From a virus, in the IMG/VR virus record IMGVR_UViG_3300028859_000009, positions 62,001-126,000 of that record: DNA of 64,000 bases; one strand, given 5' to 3'. Below, piece by piece: positions 24,297 to 42,084 of the stretch. The notes under the pieces are model-generated. The model had not been told where the DNA came from. It worked only from the letters and a program-made list of their open reading frames with translations, and did no database searches. Made by a program: the position numbers and the translations under genes. Positions within the stretch are counted from its first letter, which is position 1, and each line of letters opens with the position of its first letter.

Positions 24297-25349
24297 TCAT
24301 CTACAATTTGAACCCTTTGATGAATTGATTCCTCTCTTTGTTATACACAAATTTGACAATTTACTAATTTCTTCAGGTGAAATACTATTTTCAAATCCAT
24401 ATTTTACAGATTTTTTATGATCAATTGTTGGATAATTTCTATCATTTTTATTATTACCTTTTATATATTCATTATCATAAAAATCATAACCATTCCAAAA
24501 TTCATATAATTCTTTTTTATTTTTATTCGTATATGATTTAACTTTCAATTTATAATTCAAAAAATCACTCCTATCAGAATCTTGTAAATATAATCCTAAT
24601 GATTGCTTAGTTTTAATCATCTTATTTTTAACATCATCATTGCACATCGGATTTATATTACCATATCTTTCAGTATTTGTTGTCTCTATCTTGTTCCGTA
24701 TATCATCATTTTTAATAGGGTGATCAACACCATATTTATCTAACATTGGCTTAACTCTAAATTCATACAATGAAAAAACATTTTTTGCTCCATATTTTTC
24801 TAGATTTGTGTTTTCTATTTTAATTTGAGTGTCTTTATCTAAAAGTGATGTTGTAACACCATAATTTTTTAAAAATGTATTTTTAATTTTATTTTTAATT
24901 TCATCATTTTCAGATGCATAATCGCAGCCAAATCTAATATTGTTTGTTTCTTTCATCTTTTCTTTAAATTCTAAAACATTTAATGCATGTTCAGTACCAT
25001 ATCTTTCTATCATAGTATTTCTAATTTTATCTCTTATAACATCAGATTCTAATATATTATCAACTCCATATTTTTCTTTGACACTTATTTTTCTTTTTAT
25101 ATTGTTACATTTTTGACAATAATAGTCCTCAGTTCTATTTTTTGTATATCTATTATAAGCAATAAACAATATCTTTCTTTCTTCACCACAGCGATCACAC
25201 TTAGCATCAATTAAGACATTACTATTAATTGTCAAATCTTCAATTTTAACTTCTATAGTTTGTCCACCTTTAACATAATATCCTTTATCTATATAATGTT
25301 TCACATATCTATTATTCATTTTTAAAATCACACTTTCAGATAATATCAT
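24297..25349 (-). CDS. HNH-type homing endonuclease with seven to eight KYG repeats
   Basis: The ATG at 25349 (MILSESVILKMNNRYVKHY) is used instead of an upstream non-ATG start. A zinc module CDRCGEE ... CQKCNN is followed by about seven repeats (KYGVDN, RYGTEH, RFGCDY, NYGVTT, KYGAKN, KYGVDH, RYGNIN), then a C-terminal HNH domain with YPTIDHKKSVKYGFENSIS and LSNLCITKRGINSSK. It is the longest of the three HNH paralogues and, unlike the others, has no RHH gene upstream. A TATATATA box lies upstream. Confidence 0.82.
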   Translation of the reverse strand: MILSESVILKMNNRYVKHYIDKGYYVKGGQTIEVKIEDLTINSNVLIDAKCDRCGEERKILFIAYNRYTKNRTEDYYCQKCNNIKRKISVKEKYGVDNILESDVIRDKIRNTMIERYGTEHALNVLEFKEKMKETNNIRFGCDYASENDEIKNKIKNTFLKNYGVTTSLLDKDTQIKIENTNLEKYGAKNVFSLYEFRVKPMLDKYGVDHPIKNDDIRNKIETTNTERYGNINPMCNDDVKNKMIKTKQSLGLYLQDSDRSDFLNYKLKVKSYTNKNKKELYEFWNGYDFYDNEYIKGNNKNDRNYPTIDHKKSVKYGFENSISPEEISKLSNLCITKRGINSSKGSNCR

Positions 25350-25453
25350 ATTCTTTTTTATTTGTATATATAAAAAAAAGTTATTCAATAAAATTGTTTC
25401 AGAAAATAGACAATTTAAAATTTATATATAATAAAAAATAATAATTTGTAATT

Positions 25454-29732: not shown

Positions 29733-29784
29733 TAATAATTTTATATTTTATTGTATATATAAAAAAAATATTGTTATTTTTTAA

Positions 29785-29921
29785 ATCCTTGCGAAATATA
29801 TGAGATTGTATCTGGTTATAAATCATTCAGAGATATTAAAGTAGAGTCAAATGAATATTGGAGCAATAATATAGAAAATTTCATCAAAAATTTAATTTCT
29901 CATAATAGAAAAGAAAAATAA
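29785..29921 (+). pseudogene. gene fragment without start
   Basis: An open frame (CEIYEIVSGYKSFRDI ... NLISHNRKEK) without any start codon occupies most of the gap between two divergent genes. It has coding-like composition. It ends in HNRKEK, reminiscent of the recurrent C-terminal tag. It looks like the 3' remnant of a lost gene, perhaps removed when the adjacent restriction-modification genes arrived. Confidence 0.45.
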
Positions 29922-29958: not shown

Positions 29959-29995
29959 TTTTTAATGATATAATATATTTAAATATCATTAAAAA
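29959..29995 (+). promoter_or_regulatory. 13-bp inverted repeat covering the start of the restriction gene
   Basis: TTTTTAATGATAT (29959-29971) is perfectly complementary to ATATCATTAAAAA (29983-29995), which includes the A of the ATG at 29995. As DNA it could be an operator; as RNA a hairpin hiding the start codon. Either would delay synthesis of the nuclease until methylation is established. Confidence 0.6.
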
Positions 29996-30597
29996 TGAAA
30001 AATGAAAAAAAATTTATAGATTGTCTAGAGCTCCACATAAATAATAGATTAGAGCAATCAAAAATAAAAATCACAGATTTAGTTCTTGAAGAACTAATAA
30101 CATTCGCATTAGAAGATTCAGACAATACATACACTTACAATTCAGGTAGTCACACAGCAGGTAGAGACATAGAAGCATTAGAAGATAATGCATCAGTAAA
30201 ATCAGCTAAAGTAACTAAGGATATATTGGAAATGTCATCATTCAGATTAAGTAGATATAAAAATAACTTACCTAATATGATTGAATTCATTGATAATGAA
30301 GGTAAGAATTTTGAATACTATTATGTATTAGCTAGAAATGAAAATAAAGAAAAAATATCATATAGTTTTTACATTCTTCCGTCTAATATATTTGAATCAA
30401 AAAGTATGACATGGGAAGAATATAAATCTGGATGGCGCACAACTGATGATTCTCATGTAAAATTAAGAATAGTTAAAAATATGTCATCACAATTATGGAT
30501 AACACTAAAATTAAAAAACATAGAAAAATATATTAAATTTAAAATTGATAAAGAAATATCAACATTAGGAGAAAAAAGATATAAAGCTAATCTGTAA
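29995..30597 (+). CDS. probable type II restriction endonuclease
   Basis: The 200-residue protein has GSHTAGRDIE followed by ASVKSAKV, which fits a PD-(D/E)xK active site with Asp58 and Ser67-Val-Lys69 (SVK in place of ExK occurs in some restriction enzymes). Later segments such as FRLSRY, YYYVLARNENK ... SYSFYILPSNIF and MSSQLWITLKL are in the style of small type II enzymes. It lies convergent to a DPPY-type DNA methyltransferase with only a terminator between, the usual layout of a restriction-modification pair. Function is inferred from motif and neighbour; specificity is unknown. Confidence 0.65.
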   Translation: MKNEKKFIDCLELHINNRLEQSKIKITDLVLEELITFALEDSDNTYTYNSGSHTAGRDIEALEDNASVKSAKVTKDILEMSSFRLSRYKNNLPNMIEFIDNEGKNFEYYYVLARNENKEKISYSFYILPSNIFESKSMTWEEYKSGWRTTDDSHVKLRIVKNMSSQLWITLKLKNIEKYIKFKIDKEISTLGEKRYKANL

Positions 30598-30611
30598 AGA
30601 TTAGCTTTTTT
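30581..30611. terminator. terminator between restriction and methyltransferase genes
   Basis: AAAGCTAATC and GATTAGCTTTTTT form a hairpin overlapping the stop of the nuclease gene. Confidence 0.8.
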
Positions 30612-30625
30612 ATTAATATCATATT

Positions 30626-31510
30626 TTAATCTACAAGAAATTTCCAATTTTCAACAGCAGAATTAGACATGCTGATATATATAGGATTGTTATCAAAACC
30701 AACAAAATTCATTCCTAATTTTCTACAAACCACACCTTCACTACCAGATCCAGCAAATGGTATCACAACTAAACCACCGTCAGAAGGCTTAGATGATAAT
30801 AGTAATCTCTCAGTTAACTTTAATGGTTTTTGTGTTGGATGCTTAACTACGTCTTTCTTTTTTTCAGATGAAAGATTTTTCATTTCAGATGGTAGGCAAA
30901 ATTTACCGTCAAGTAAAAAGTATCTTTCCTTTGATCCTGCTCCACCTGCTAATGATGATATGTTAGTAAACACATCTCTAGGTAATGCTCCACCTGGATG
31001 AGCCTCATATACCGTATCTTTATATCCACCATATCTAGCTGTGTCACTTTTTGTTCTTTTTTTACCTGCTGAATTTTTTAAAAATGTTTCACTATAAGGT
31101 TCTCTAACATCATCAACATTAAAAATAGCGTCATTTTTATATGCCCATATAATAGATTCATGACTTCTTTGCCAACCACTTTTATATGTAGGTACAGTTT
31201 TATTAGTATAGTGCCAAATTAACCATCTCTTATTTAAATTTAAATTTACTGATAAATGAGCCAATATTTCAGAAAACCCATAGATAAAAATGCTACCAGT
31301 TGGCTTTAATATTCTTATAGATTCATTCATCCATAATTTAGACCACTCTATATAATCTTCAAGTTTCATATTATCTTTATTATTACCAAAATCTTTACCT
31401 ATATTATAAGGTGGATCTATTAACACGATATCAACTGATTCATCATCAATTTTATGCATACCATCTAAAACATCCATAAGATAATATTTATTCAATTCTA
31501 ATTTATTCAT
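30626..31510 (-). CDS. DNA adenine/cytosine methyltransferase, DPPY type (beta class)
   Basis: The catalytic motif IDPPYN is at residues 31-36, followed by KHPTQKPLKLTERLL and the AdoMet-binding VIPFAGSGSEGVVCRKLG near residue 250. Motif IV before motif I marks the beta class, and DPPY favours N6-adenine methylation. At 294 residues it is a normal length. Convergent with the probable restriction enzyme at 29995-30597, it is likely the protecting partner. A homing endonuclease gene lies directly upstream. Confidence 0.88.
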   Translation of the reverse strand: MNKLELNKYYLMDVLDGMHKIDDESVDIVLIDPPYNIGKDFGNNKDNMKLEDYIEWSKLWMNESIRILKPTGSIFIYGFSEILAHLSVNLNLNKRWLIWHYTNKTVPTYKSGWQRSHESIIWAYKNDAIFNVDDVREPYSETFLKNSAGKKRTKSDTARYGGYKDTVYEAHPGGALPRDVFTNISSLAGGAGSKERYFLLDGKFCLPSEMKNLSSEKKKDVVKHPTQKPLKLTERLLLSSKPSDGGLVVIPFAGSGSEGVVCRKLGMNFVGFDNNPIYISMSNSAVENWKFLVD

Positions 31511-31541: not shown

Positions 31542-32429
31542 TTAGATAGAATTATTGTTTTTGTTTATAATATATTCATACTCACACATTCTATTTTTAG
31601 ATGAATTTATAGTTCTTTTTGTAATACATAAATTATCAAAATGTGCAATATCATCTATTGAAATATTATTCATAAATTCATAAAATATAGATGTTTTATG
31701 ATCTATTGTTGGATATAACGAATGTCCAGGGTTAAGATTTAAATTTTCTTTAATATATTCATTATCATAATAATCATAACCATTCCAATCATAAAAAATA
31801 ACACTCTTTAATGTTCTTGTTATTTTTCTGACTTTAAACTGATATATCTCAAAATCACTTTTATAAAAATCTGGAACCTTTCTACCATTTAATACTAGTG
31901 ATTCTTCATATTTTGTAGACTGGCTATAGTGATCAACACCATATTTTTCTCTACACGTATTTTTCATTTTTTCCTTCACTATATAACTTTTTGCTGCATT
32001 ATCAAATCCAAAATTATTTATATTAGACTCAACAATTTTTAATCTTATATCTTTAGACTGAGATGGATAATCAACACCATATTTTTTATTGTTTGTAGAT
32101 ATAATTTTATTCTTTATTTCATCAATTTGAAACACATTATCACGACCATATCTTTCATTATTAGTTTTTATATTTTTAAATTGAGCACAAGTTGGTGAAC
32201 AACAATAAACATTGTTGTTATTATATGATAACAAATATTGCCTATATGGTTTAAATGATTGTTTATGACAAATATCACACTCAACAAGAATATTAGTATG
32301 TGAGCCAACAGGTAAATTAAAAACATCAATAACATATTCTTCTCCTTTTTTTATATCATTGACACATTTTTTAAAGAATTTATAATTAACAGAATTTATT
32401 TTTATTTTAACATTTTTTGAAATTATCAT
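31542..32429 (-). CDS. HNH-type homing endonuclease with zinc finger and KYG repeats
   Basis: The 295-residue paralogue has a zinc module CDICHKQ ... CSPTCAQ, about four KYG-type repeats (RYGRDN, KYGVDY, NFGFDN, KYGVDH) and the C-terminal WNGYDYYDNEYI, YPTIDHKTSIFYEF and FDNLCITKRTINSSK. It overlaps an upstream RHH gene by 23 bases, as does the copy at 22.4 kb. It sits between a methyltransferase and a SLOG gene and could have mobilised either. Confidence 0.82.
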   Translation of the reverse strand: MIISKNVKIKINSVNYKFFKKCVNDIKKGEEYVIDVFNLPVGSHTNILVECDICHKQSFKPYRQYLLSYNNNNVYCCSPTCAQFKNIKTNNERYGRDNVFQIDEIKNKIISTNNKKYGVDYPSQSKDIRLKIVESNINNFGFDNAAKSYIVKEKMKNTCREKYGVDHYSQSTKYEESLVLNGRKVPDFYKSDFEIYQFKVRKITRTLKSVIFYDWNGYDYYDNEYIKENLNLNPGHSLYPTIDHKTSIFYEFMNNISIDDIAHFDNLCITKRTINSSKNRMCEYEYIINKNNNSI

Positions 32430-34022: not shown

Positions 34023-34247
34023 TTAATTTATTTCTCTATATTTAATATTGACTGTTGGATTTTCATTTATTCCTAATCTTCTTAATTTTCTAACTATTGA
34101 TCCCTTTTTATAAATAGTTAGTATACAATCTTCTGCATCTATTTCTGAAGTTTTAATTTTACCTGTATATTTATTAAAATCATCTGAACTTTCAAAAACA
34201 AATTCTACATTTTTCTTTTCTTTTTCTACTACGACTTTCTCTTTCAT
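34023..34247 (-). CDS. hypothetical protein (74 aa)
   Basis: A small charged protein whose start codon overlaps the stop of the methyltransferase gene. The body (VEFVFESSDDFNKYTGKIKTS) is beta-rich. It may be an accessory to the methyltransferase; evidence is positional only. Confidence 0.55.
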   Translation of the reverse strand: MKEKVVVEKEKKNVEFVFESSDDFNKYTGKIKTSEIDAEDCILTIYKKGSIVRKLRRLGINENPTVNIKYREIN

Positions 34248-34993
34248 TACATTTCATTTTTTTTTCTGATTTTATTCAAATCTATATTCTTATCCGCAAT
34301 ATTTACGTACTCACTTGATATATCAAAGCCTATATACTGTCTACCTAATCTTTTTGCTACAATAGCAGTTGTACCTATTCCCATAAAAGGATCTAATACT
34401 ACATCTCCTTCTTTAGTAGTTGCTTTTATACATTGTTCAACCAATTCTTCTGGAAAAGGTGCTGGATGAGGAATATTCATTTTTGGTGATATTCTCCAAA
34501 TACTTTTTTGCTCAATCAAATCTCTTTTATTAAATATTGGAGCCTTTTTATTATCCTTTGTTAACCAATATATCAATTCATATACTGGCTGAAAAAAATA
34601 TAATGAATTATTCACATCAGCTTTTCTATCCCAAATTATTGTTTGATAAATATTTATATTTGATTTACTAACCCATTCATATGGAGAATATTCAGTTTTA
34701 TTATATCTTCTATTTTTATGATTATAAAAAAATGATCCGCCAGGCTTTAATACTCTTTTAATTTCATTCAATATTTCAATTTGCCATTTCTGATATTCAT
34801 CTTCAGGCATATTATCTTCAAAATTGTCATATGTAATATATCCATCCCAATCTCCACCTTTTTGCTTTTTTCCTTTCATAAGCCCTAATTTGTTATATGG
34901 TGGTGATGTTACACCAACATCAATACTATTATCATCTAATTTTCTTAATCCTTCTAATACATCCATTTGATATATTTTATTATATTCTAGCAT
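34247..34993 (-). CDS. orphan N4-cytosine-type DNA methyltransferase
   Basis: The catalytic motif TSPPYN (residues 29-34) and the AdoMet-binding VLDPFMGIGTTAIVAKRLG near residue 200 define a beta-class amino-methyltransferase, and SPPY favours N4-cytosine. At 248 residues it is normal. No nuclease is adjacent, so it probably protects phage DNA from a host restriction system or regulates packaging or expression. Confidence 0.88.
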   Translation of the reverse strand: MLEYNKIYQMDVLEGLRKLDDNSIDVGVTSPPYNKLGLMKGKKQKGGDWDGYITYDNFEDNMPEDEYQKWQIEILNEIKRVLKPGGSFFYNHKNRRYNKTEYSPYEWVSKSNINIYQTIIWDRKADVNNSLYFFQPVYELIYWLTKDNKKAPIFNKRDLIEQKSIWRISPKMNIPHPAPFPEELVEQCIKATTKEGDVVLDPFMGIGTTAIVAKRLGRQYIGFDISSEYVNIADKNIDLNKIRKKNEM

Positions 34994-35140: not shown

Positions 35141-36124
35141 TCATTTAGTCCATGTGAACTTCTCAGTTCCAACATCATATATTCTATATAATTTATTGAC
35201 ATAACAAATATCATGTTCACCCCAATATTCACCATTATATCCACAGGATAATAAGACATCTTTCCGATATCCAAATCTATTCTTTCTTACATTATCAACT
35301 ATATAAAAATATGATGGATCACTTTTATGTTCAAATACTAATCCTAATTTTTTATAAATGTTCTCAGAACTACTCCACATCATATCAGCATATGAAGTTA
35401 TTGTAGAAGGATCATATGTATTAACAAAAAATTTAAATAATTTTGATGCACCTCCAATAACAGAAGTACCCATTTTATTACAAAATCTTAATAATTCATA
35501 GTCATCAGAACCTCCGTGTTGACCCATATTCTTTCTTAGTTTACCAAAAGTCATAACTGAAACTATTTCATCATTAAATTTTAAACCTAATTTAATAAAA
35601 GATCCTACGTTACCTTGAAGATGATTTTCATTTATAAATTTACTAACAAAAGAATTATCTTTTTTATCAAAAATTACAATTTTACATTTCCTTGCATATA
35701 TTGTTTCTGATAATCCAAACATATTTTTTAATCTGGATTTTATATTAGTTTTTCTAATTTCCCATAAATCTTCAAATATTTGTATTAAATGAATTCCTGA
35801 TTTTTCATATTCCAAATAAGAATTTAATTGATATTTTTTATCTACATTTAACTCACAATAACTATATAAATCAATAAATTTTAAAGCTAAATTTAATTCA
35901 GGTATATAAAAATCAGATTTATAATCGTTTATACTATAATTCTCAATTAATTTATATTTACAATTATTAATTACATGATTTCTAAATTCTTCAAAATTTT
36001 CTTTTGTATTCAAATTTTCAAAATTCGTAGGATTTAAATACGTTTGAATCCAACTATCTGATTTAGTTGGCTCTATTCTATATAGTGAATTATCTGTTAA
36101 TATTTCTTTACTTAGTTTTAACAT
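35141..36124 (-). CDS. Hef-like homing endonuclease relative with altered active site
   Basis: The 327-residue product aligns by eye along its whole length with the C-terminal 350 residues of the protein at 40381-42084: DFYIPELNLALKFID versus DIYLPDLKLAFEYNG, then GIHLIQIFEDLW, HLQGNVGSFIKLGL, MTFGKLR, ELLRFCNKMGTSVIGGASKLFKFF and FGYRKD. The Glu of AFEYNG, expected to be part of the Vsr/PD-(D/E)xK site, is Lys here. Nuclease activity may be lost. The N-terminal zinc and KYG repeats are also absent. It is the last gene after the split polymerase. Confidence 0.72.
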   Translation of the reverse strand: MLKLSKEILTDNSLYRIEPTKSDSWIQTYLNPTNFENLNTKENFEEFRNHVINNCKYKLIENYSINDYKSDFYIPELNLALKFIDLYSYCELNVDKKYQLNSYLEYEKSGIHLIQIFEDLWEIRKTNIKSRLKNMFGLSETIYARKCKIVIFDKKDNSFVSKFINENHLQGNVGSFIKLGLKFNDEIVSVMTFGKLRKNMGQHGGSDDYELLRFCNKMGTSVIGGASKLFKFFVNTYDPSTITSYADMMWSSSENIYKKLGLVFEHKSDPSYFYIVDNVRKNRFGYRKDVLLSCGYNGEYWGEHDICYVNKLYRIYDVGTEKFTWTK

Positions 36125-40380: not shown

Positions 40381-42084
40381 ATGATAAAAGAAAAAGAGTT
40401 AAATATACAAATGACAAGTAGAAATATAACATATTATAAAAATTTAGGATATAATGTTATAAATGGTAATACTTGTAATATAAAAATTGAAGATGTAAAT
40501 AAAAATTCAAAACTTAAAATTACAGCGATTTGTGAGAAATGTGATTCTGAAAATTATATTTCAATCGAAAAATATTATAAAAATTTCAATAATCATAATT
40601 ATTATGGTTGTAAAAAATGTTCCAAGGAAAAATTCAAACTAACAAGTAATATATTATTTGGAGTTGATAATCCTATGAAAAATAAAGAAATAAAAGAAAA
40701 AGCAGAAAAAACTAATTTAAAAAAATACGGGTATAAAACTTCATTATTAAATAATGAAGTAAAAGAAAAAATAAAAAAAACAAATTTAGAAAAATATGGT
40801 ACGGAAATTCCTTTAGAAAATAAAGAAATTAGAGATAAAATTAAAAATACTAATTTAGAAAGATATGGAGTAGAATATCCTGCTCAAAATAAAAATATAG
40901 AAAATAAAATTAAAAATACCAATTTAAAAAAATATGGTTTTGAACATCCAGCTCAAAATGAAAAAATAAAACAAAAAATAAAAGACACAAATTTAGAAAA
41001 ATATGGTAACATTTCACCTTTTAAAAGTGATATAATAAAATCTAAATTCGCTGAAAAATATAAAGATAAATATAAAGAAATAAATATTATTGAAGTTGAA
41101 GATAATCATTTAATTATTAAATGTGATAAATGTGATCATTCATATAAAATTTCAAAAACTATGTTTAATCATAAAATGTTAGAACATATTATTTTATGTC
41201 CTAAATGTAATCCGTCATCTAATTCATTCATGGAATCTAAAATTATAGAATTCATATCAGAAAATTATAGTAAATCTATAATATTAAATAGTAAATCTAT
41301 AATATCTCCATTAGAATTAGATATTTATTTACCAGATTTAAAATTAGCATTTGAATATAATGGTATATATTGGCATAATGAAGTAAATAAAGATAATAAT
41401 TATCATTTAAATAAAACTGAAGAATGTGAAAAATTAGGAATACAATTAATTCATATATGGGAAGACGAATGGCTATATAAGAGAGAGATAATAAAATCTA
41501 TAATATTAAATAAATTAGGAAAAATAAAAAATAAAATATATGCTATAGACTGTGAAATAAAAAAAATTGATAATAATAATTTAGCTAGAGAATTTCTTAA
41601 TAATAATAATATTCAAGGATTTATAGGTTCAAAAATTAAAATTGGATTATTTTATGAAAAAAAATTAGTAAGTCTTATGACATTTGATAATAGACATATT
41701 ATAAATGAAGGAGAATATAATTTATTAAGGTTTTGTAATATATTAAATACTGATATTATAGAAGGAGAATATCAATTATTTAATTATTTTATTAAAAATT
41801 ATAATTCTAATAAAATAACAGTGTACTCAGATAGATCTATTAGTCAAGGTAAATTATATGAAAAATTAGGATTTAAATATGAAGGAAAAACTGATCCTAA
41901 TTATTTTTATGTCATAAATAGAAATAGATATAATAAATTTAACTTCAGAAAAAATAAATTAGTTATGGATGGATTTGATATTAATAAAACAGAGCATGAA
42001 ATAATGTTAGAAAGAAAGATATATAGAATATATGATTCTGGTAATCTAAAATTTGTATATTACAATAATATTGATATTAAATAA
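40381..42084 (+). CDS. Hef-like homing endonuclease with zinc modules and KYG repeats
   Basis: The 567-residue product combines two CxxC modules (CEKCDSE ... CKKCSKE, later CDKCDHS ... CPKCNPS), about six KYG repeats (FGVDNP, KYGYKT, KYGTEI, RYGVEY, KYGFEH, KYGNIS) and a C-terminal nuclease region with LELDIYLPDLKLAFEYNGIYWH and IWEDEW. The latter fits Vsr-like/PD-(D/E)xK Hef enzymes that replace mob genes in T4-type phages. The KYG array is shared with the three HNH paralogues. It is divergent from the split polymerase and probably acts as its mobile neighbour. Confidence 0.85.
   Translation: MIKEKELNIQMTSRNITYYKNLGYNVINGNTCNIKIEDVNKNSKLKITAICEKCDSENYISIEKYYKNFNNHNYYGCKKCSKEKFKLTSNILFGVDNPMKNKEIKEKAEKTNLKKYGYKTSLLNNEVKEKIKKTNLEKYGTEIPLENKEIRDKIKNTNLERYGVEYPAQNKNIENKIKNTNLKKYGFEHPAQNEKIKQKIKDTNLEKYGNISPFKSDIIKSKFAEKYKDKYKEINIIEVEDNHLIIKCDKCDHSYKISKTMFNHKMLEHIILCPKCNPSSNSFMESKIIEFISENYSKSIILNSKSIISPLELDIYLPDLKLAFEYNGIYWHNEVNKDNNYHLNKTEECEKLGIQLIHIWEDEWLYKREIIKSIILNKLGKIKNKIYAIDCEIKKIDNNNLAREFLNNNNIQGFIGSKIKIGLFYEKKLVSLMTFDNRHIINEGEYNLLRFCNILNTDIIEGEYQLFNYFIKNYNSNKITVYSDRSISQGKLYEKLGFKYEGKTDPNYFYVINRNRYNKFNFRKNKLVMDGFDINKTEHEIMLERKIYRIYDSGNLKFVYYNNIDIK

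Follow-up and report, generated by a model that had tools for sequence, protein, structure and literature searches.

The 64,000-nt stretch of viral DNA analysed here, termed the window, carries convergent nuclease and methyltransferase genes that very probably constitute a restriction-modification pair, as judged from sequence and structural modelling. We put the probability that they form a working type II system at about 80%. The two genes are adjacent and their pairing is conserved between genomes, the arrangement by which such systems are recognised. According to a survey, complete restriction-modification systems are nearly absent from phages (PMC4176335), so that a phage-borne pair with traceable relatives is useful. 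The window pair itself would be a further example of a known system type; the novelty lies in a solo form of the nuclease, carried by phages that are devoid of the predicted site in the DNA read.

Two convergent genes form the window pair

The nuclease gene (29995..30597, + strand) encodes a 200-aa protein assigned to the PD-(D/E)XK type on the basis of its reading frame, homologues, structure model and fold, with D58 and S67-V68-K69 as putative catalytic residues. The gene of a 294-aa adenine methyltransferase lies on the opposite strand (30626..31510, − strand) and was identified by profile, PDB homologues and alignment. Both reading frames, described beforehand as a nuclease-like frame converging on a DPPY methyltransferase, were found in that arrangement. 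At the convergence point, a terminator-like inverted repeat with 11-bp arms and a 4-nt loop (30583..30608, assigned to neither strand) carries the nuclease stop codon at its loop. A similar repeat occupies the same place between the convergent genes of a related viral contig, L002 (3884-3925).

The methyltransferase matched PF01555 (E 1e-37), which denotes an N6_N4 enzyme, and its solved homologues include RsrI and MboIIA. The order of its motifs, DPPY (residues 32-35), target-recognition region and FAGSGS (residues 252-257), places it in the beta class within PF01555.

Several other features were observed in the surroundings. Upstream of the nuclease gene, a short open stretch that lacks its own start codon (29765-29920, + strand; CEIYEIVSGYKSFRDIKVESNEYWSNNIENFIKNLISHNRKEK) is perhaps a gene remnant. 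Matches to homing-endonuclease families (DUF7487, phrog_3339) occur at 24297-25388, 31542-32429, 35141-36124 and 40381-42084, one of them directly adjoining the methyltransferase gene. At 34247-34993 (− strand), the window encodes another DNA methyltransferase of the beta class, which seems to have no partner nuclease.

The nuclease resembles restriction enzymes in fold

Profile searches at curated cut-offs in Pfam, NCBIfam, PADLOC and PHROGs returned no convincing family match for the nuclease. Membership in the ThaI family was not seen in the Pfam scan, and the TaqI family (PF09573) had no match in the nuclease or anywhere in the whole record. Sequence searches of phage records, plasmid records and PDB sequences yielded nothing convincing, and initial scans of viral and genome sequences gave either no match or L002 only. 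Relatives of the nuclease were reached solely through the neighbourhoods of methyltransferase genes and afterwards by a motif scan.

In the resulting homologue alignment, D58 (codon GAC, 30166-30168) was nearly invariant and K69 was conserved. The S67-V68-K69 motif, encoded by TCAGTAAAA (30193-30201), was SVK or SIK among the solo homologues described below and QIK in the Bdellovibrionales one. The near-invariance of D58 and these motif variants support the original prediction, both of a type II restriction-modification pair and of the catalytic residues that it named.

An AlphaFold2 model, built on 17 homologues mostly from one clade, reached a pLDDT of 83 and a pTM of 0.81. The closest solved fold was that of ThaI (PDB 3ndh; Z 7.9 over 170 residues, rmsd 4.5, 11% identity), followed among others by EcoRV (Z 6.5), HinP1I, NhoI, Sau3AI, BglI and MvaI. 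A Foldseek search with the model retrieved NhoI (E 9e-4). These Z scores are middling, and values of such size can reflect a common arrangement, as the structure-search tool itself notes; the conserved aspartate and lysine weigh as much in the assignment. Structural neighbours that are mostly PD-(D/E)XK restriction enzymes, conserved D58 and K69, and a serine or glutamine in the middle position of the motif together point to membership in the PD-(D/E)XK group. Placement in an unrelated family by profile search, the outcome against which the original prediction had been set, did not occur: the protein has no sequence family and falls among restriction enzymes by fold. The nuclease is a member of an undescribed restriction-enzyme family.

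Related pairs in viruses and bacteria

L002, a 43-kb viral contig, encodes the same convergent pair, with a methyltransferase 84% and a nuclease 38% identical to those of the window. Bacterial relatives of the methyltransferase fall into two classes according to their partner. The first class, with homologues of the window nuclease, comprises two Bdellovibrionota loci (L017 and L016), L019 (a MAG titled Rickettsia) and L004 (a Spiroplasma citri plasmid). Frameshifts or truncations appear to have broken the nuclease loci of L016, L019 and L004, some of which lack the N-terminal part. On the Spiroplasma plasmid (genetic code 4), the nuclease-like remnant (L004 3964-4413, + strand) adjoins an unannotated methyltransferase. 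In the second class (L009-L013, L020), a convergent gene beside the methyltransferase encodes a nuclease of another type. TaqI type was established by profile for L010 and L011, whose nucleases matched PF09573 (E 2e-31 and 3e-34), and those of L009, L012, L013 and L020 were likened to them by visual comparison.

The window and L002 proteins group as a separate branch of the methyltransferase tree; the sequences closest by path are TaqI-paired, while the deep forks are open. In comparison with the TaqI-paired relatives, conservation of the target-recognition region (54-63%) equals that of the remaining protein. The pairing of related methyltransferases with two unrelated nucleases suggests, without proving, a shared target.

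Phages carrying the nuclease alone

The motif scan revealed nuclease homologues of approx. 30% identity on 28 further viral contigs that lack an adjacent methyltransferase gene; one of these solo homologues is encoded at L049 3923-4522. A search of the long solo contigs, whose records may be fragments, found no N6_N4, C5 or D12 methyltransferase. TCGA was absent from the 28 contigs (0 of 357 expected in the stretches of DNA read), as was AGCT (0 of 1223), and CCGG (4 of 297) and CGCG (16 of 275) were rare. The individual stretches (L036-L063 and L065-L083, from viral records G001-G005 and others) displayed the same picture, with AGCT and TCGA absent, CCGG and CGCG nearly so, and other palindromic tetranucleotides present. 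The hosts of the solo phages may be actinobacterial, as their portal protein shares 46% identity with its counterpart in Streptomyces phages.

Among 25 portal-related records tested for the nuclease, several of them short, the sole match was a known carrier. Seven such records without a detected nuclease were read at length; they contained 167 TCGA sites of 289 expected in the stretches read, and all seven were devoid of CGCG. In G019, a related phage, the homologous locus has no nuclease gene between the genes that flank it in G001. Of the missing tetranucleotides, TCGA is the one whose absence follows the nuclease gene.

The sets of erased tetranucleotides differ between related phages. In G019 (L167-L171), GGCC is missing (0 of 132 expected) along with AGCT and CGCG, and TCGA is kept. 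The ThaI, NgoPII and TaqI Pfam families were considered as a cause of the other missing tetranucleotides and rejected, as they gave no matches. A distant nuclease homologue (26% identity) was found on a 7.9-kb contig directly after a clamp-loader-like gene (L191 676-1254, + strand). No methyltransferase was seen on this contig and TCGA occurs at 4 of 15 expected sites, a count that speaks against TCGA as target.

As the survey cited above notes, carriage of a nuclease but not of its methyltransferase may be lethal where its sites exist (PMC4176335). The solo clade, which consists of environmental phages, may use the nuclease without a methyltransferase and protect itself by erasing every TCGA, so that absence of the site replaces methylation as the mark of self; we put this at somewhat less than even odds. 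If it is true, the window pair represents the same weapon in a form protected by methylation. In this respect the solo relatives are of greater importance than the pair, as a phage clade with the nuclease alone and zero predicted sites in the DNA read.

TCGA is the favoured target

From these comparisons, TCGA is our best guess for the target of the window pair and probably the right one. At the six loci with TaqI-type partners (L009-L013, L020), 26 TCGA sites were seen vs 122 expected, and AGCT, CCGG, CGCG and GCGC were mostly near expectation; GATC was also low in some. With a methyltransferase present, TCGA is expected to be tolerated, and the counts of the window phage are consistent with this: the window has 49 of 55 expected sites, and another 60 kb of the same record have 44 of 53. 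The L002 contig contains 23 of 44. At L017, where a homologue of the window nuclease is encoded, TCGA is undepleted (11 of 11), and this counts against a TCGA target.

The pair could be real and recognise another sequence, with AGCT as the next candidate, in which case the solo phages would have lost TCGA to TaqI-like systems of their hosts or as a trait of one clade. We consider this unlikely, though it is the strongest of the alternatives. All 28 solo contigs are equally without AGCT, and host restriction sites are often avoided by phages (PMC6286503); host restriction alone could cause the TCGA erasure. Furthermore, all five long solo contigs belong to a single clade by their portal proteins (89-100% identity), so that the association between gene and site may be a single event. 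Against this stand the seven portal relatives without a detected nuclease, six of which also lack or nearly lack AGCT while all seven keep TCGA, and the close methyltransferase relatives that adjoin TaqI-type nucleases. On balance, TCGA is retained as the predicted target.

A hairpin at the nuclease start codon

The perfect 13-bp inverted repeat noted earlier at the nuclease start is real (29959..29995, + strand). Its arms (29959-29971 and 29983-29995) enclose an 11-nt loop and consist almost purely of A and T, with one G or C per arm; the repeat ends on the A of the ATG. The window contains 14 perfect inverted repeats of at least 13 bp vs 0-2 (mean 0.6) in 10 Markov-shuffled versions. Several of the others begin with A, end with T and lie at gene ends like terminators. 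The repeat at the nuclease start begins with T and contains almost no G+C, and a terminator function is unlikely for these reasons.

Among the 81 predicted gene starts of the window, the nuclease start ranked second by the degree to which the 15 nt preceding the ATG are paired, and seventh by folding energy; the methyltransferase start ranked 49th in the same comparison. A longer fold of 121 nt was only mildly unusual (z = −1.6). The excess of repeats over the shuffled versions and the ranking of the start indicate a hairpin that is above chance, yet weak.

The nuclease start of L002 has no such repeat and is weakly structured (−2.9 vs −9.6 kcal/mol for the window). A conserved control element was not supported, as the hairpin is missing from this related pair. 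The two L017 genes share a strand, and the methyltransferase frame is overlapped at its end by the nuclease frame. With L002 lacking the repeat and L017 arranged in this way, the proposal that the hairpin delays nuclease expression found no support as a feature of the system. In the window phage itself, the hairpin may lower nuclease translation.

Proposed role of the pair

In the proposed mechanism, the methyltransferase would mark TCGA in the DNA of the phage itself, and the nuclease would cut unmarked TCGA in the host chromosome, thereby feeding phage replication, and/or in competing phages. There is precedent in chloroviruses, which have adjacent restriction and modification genes and package nucleases believed to act in the degradation of host DNA (PMC7019647). 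From our analysis, use against host DNA or rivals appears somewhat better founded than use as an addiction module.

Alternatively, the pair could be decaying, with the methyltransferase kept against host restriction and the nuclease being lost. The lower identity to L002 of the nuclease than of the methyltransferase could mean relaxed selection, and phages carry solitary methyltransferases far more commonly than complete systems (PMC4176335). Decay is nevertheless improbable, given that the nuclease frame is open, that D58, K69 and other conserved positions are kept and that the model is confident. Equally improbable is an addiction module by which the phage would be maintained in the cell and in which the hairpin at the start codon would hold back the nuclease until DNA methylation: plasmid type II pairs do mediate post-segregational killing (PMC11324026) and few gene starts in the window are as structured as that of the nuclease, but the related L002 pair has no hairpin, and addiction, though possible for the window pair, is favoured by no observation made here. 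The window pair also brings an apparently undescribed restriction-enzyme family with a testable target.

Comparison with known systems

TaqI-type systems (PF09573, TCGA) share with the window a convergent nuclease gene and methyltransferases 51-56% identical to that of the window, whereas the nuclease of the window does not match the TaqI profile. The methyltransferases differ in class as well, classical M.TaqI belonging to the gamma class (PMC4081073) and that of the window to the beta class. ThaI (PDB 3ndh) is the best structural match of the nuclease model but differs in sequence, and a match to its Pfam family was not seen for the window nuclease. In the Prochlorococcus phage Syn33, one of the cyanophages with such pairs, an annotated restriction endonuclease adjoins dam, a methyltransferase related to that of the window. 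The Syn33 genes are arranged in tandem and overlap, the methyltransferase is only approx. 28% identical, and the likeness of the nucleases is one of annotation. Chlorovirus restriction-modification systems are likewise virus-borne, with adjacent nuclease and methyltransferase genes; they belong to algal viruses with virion-packaged nucleases and resemble the window pair in gene arrangement.
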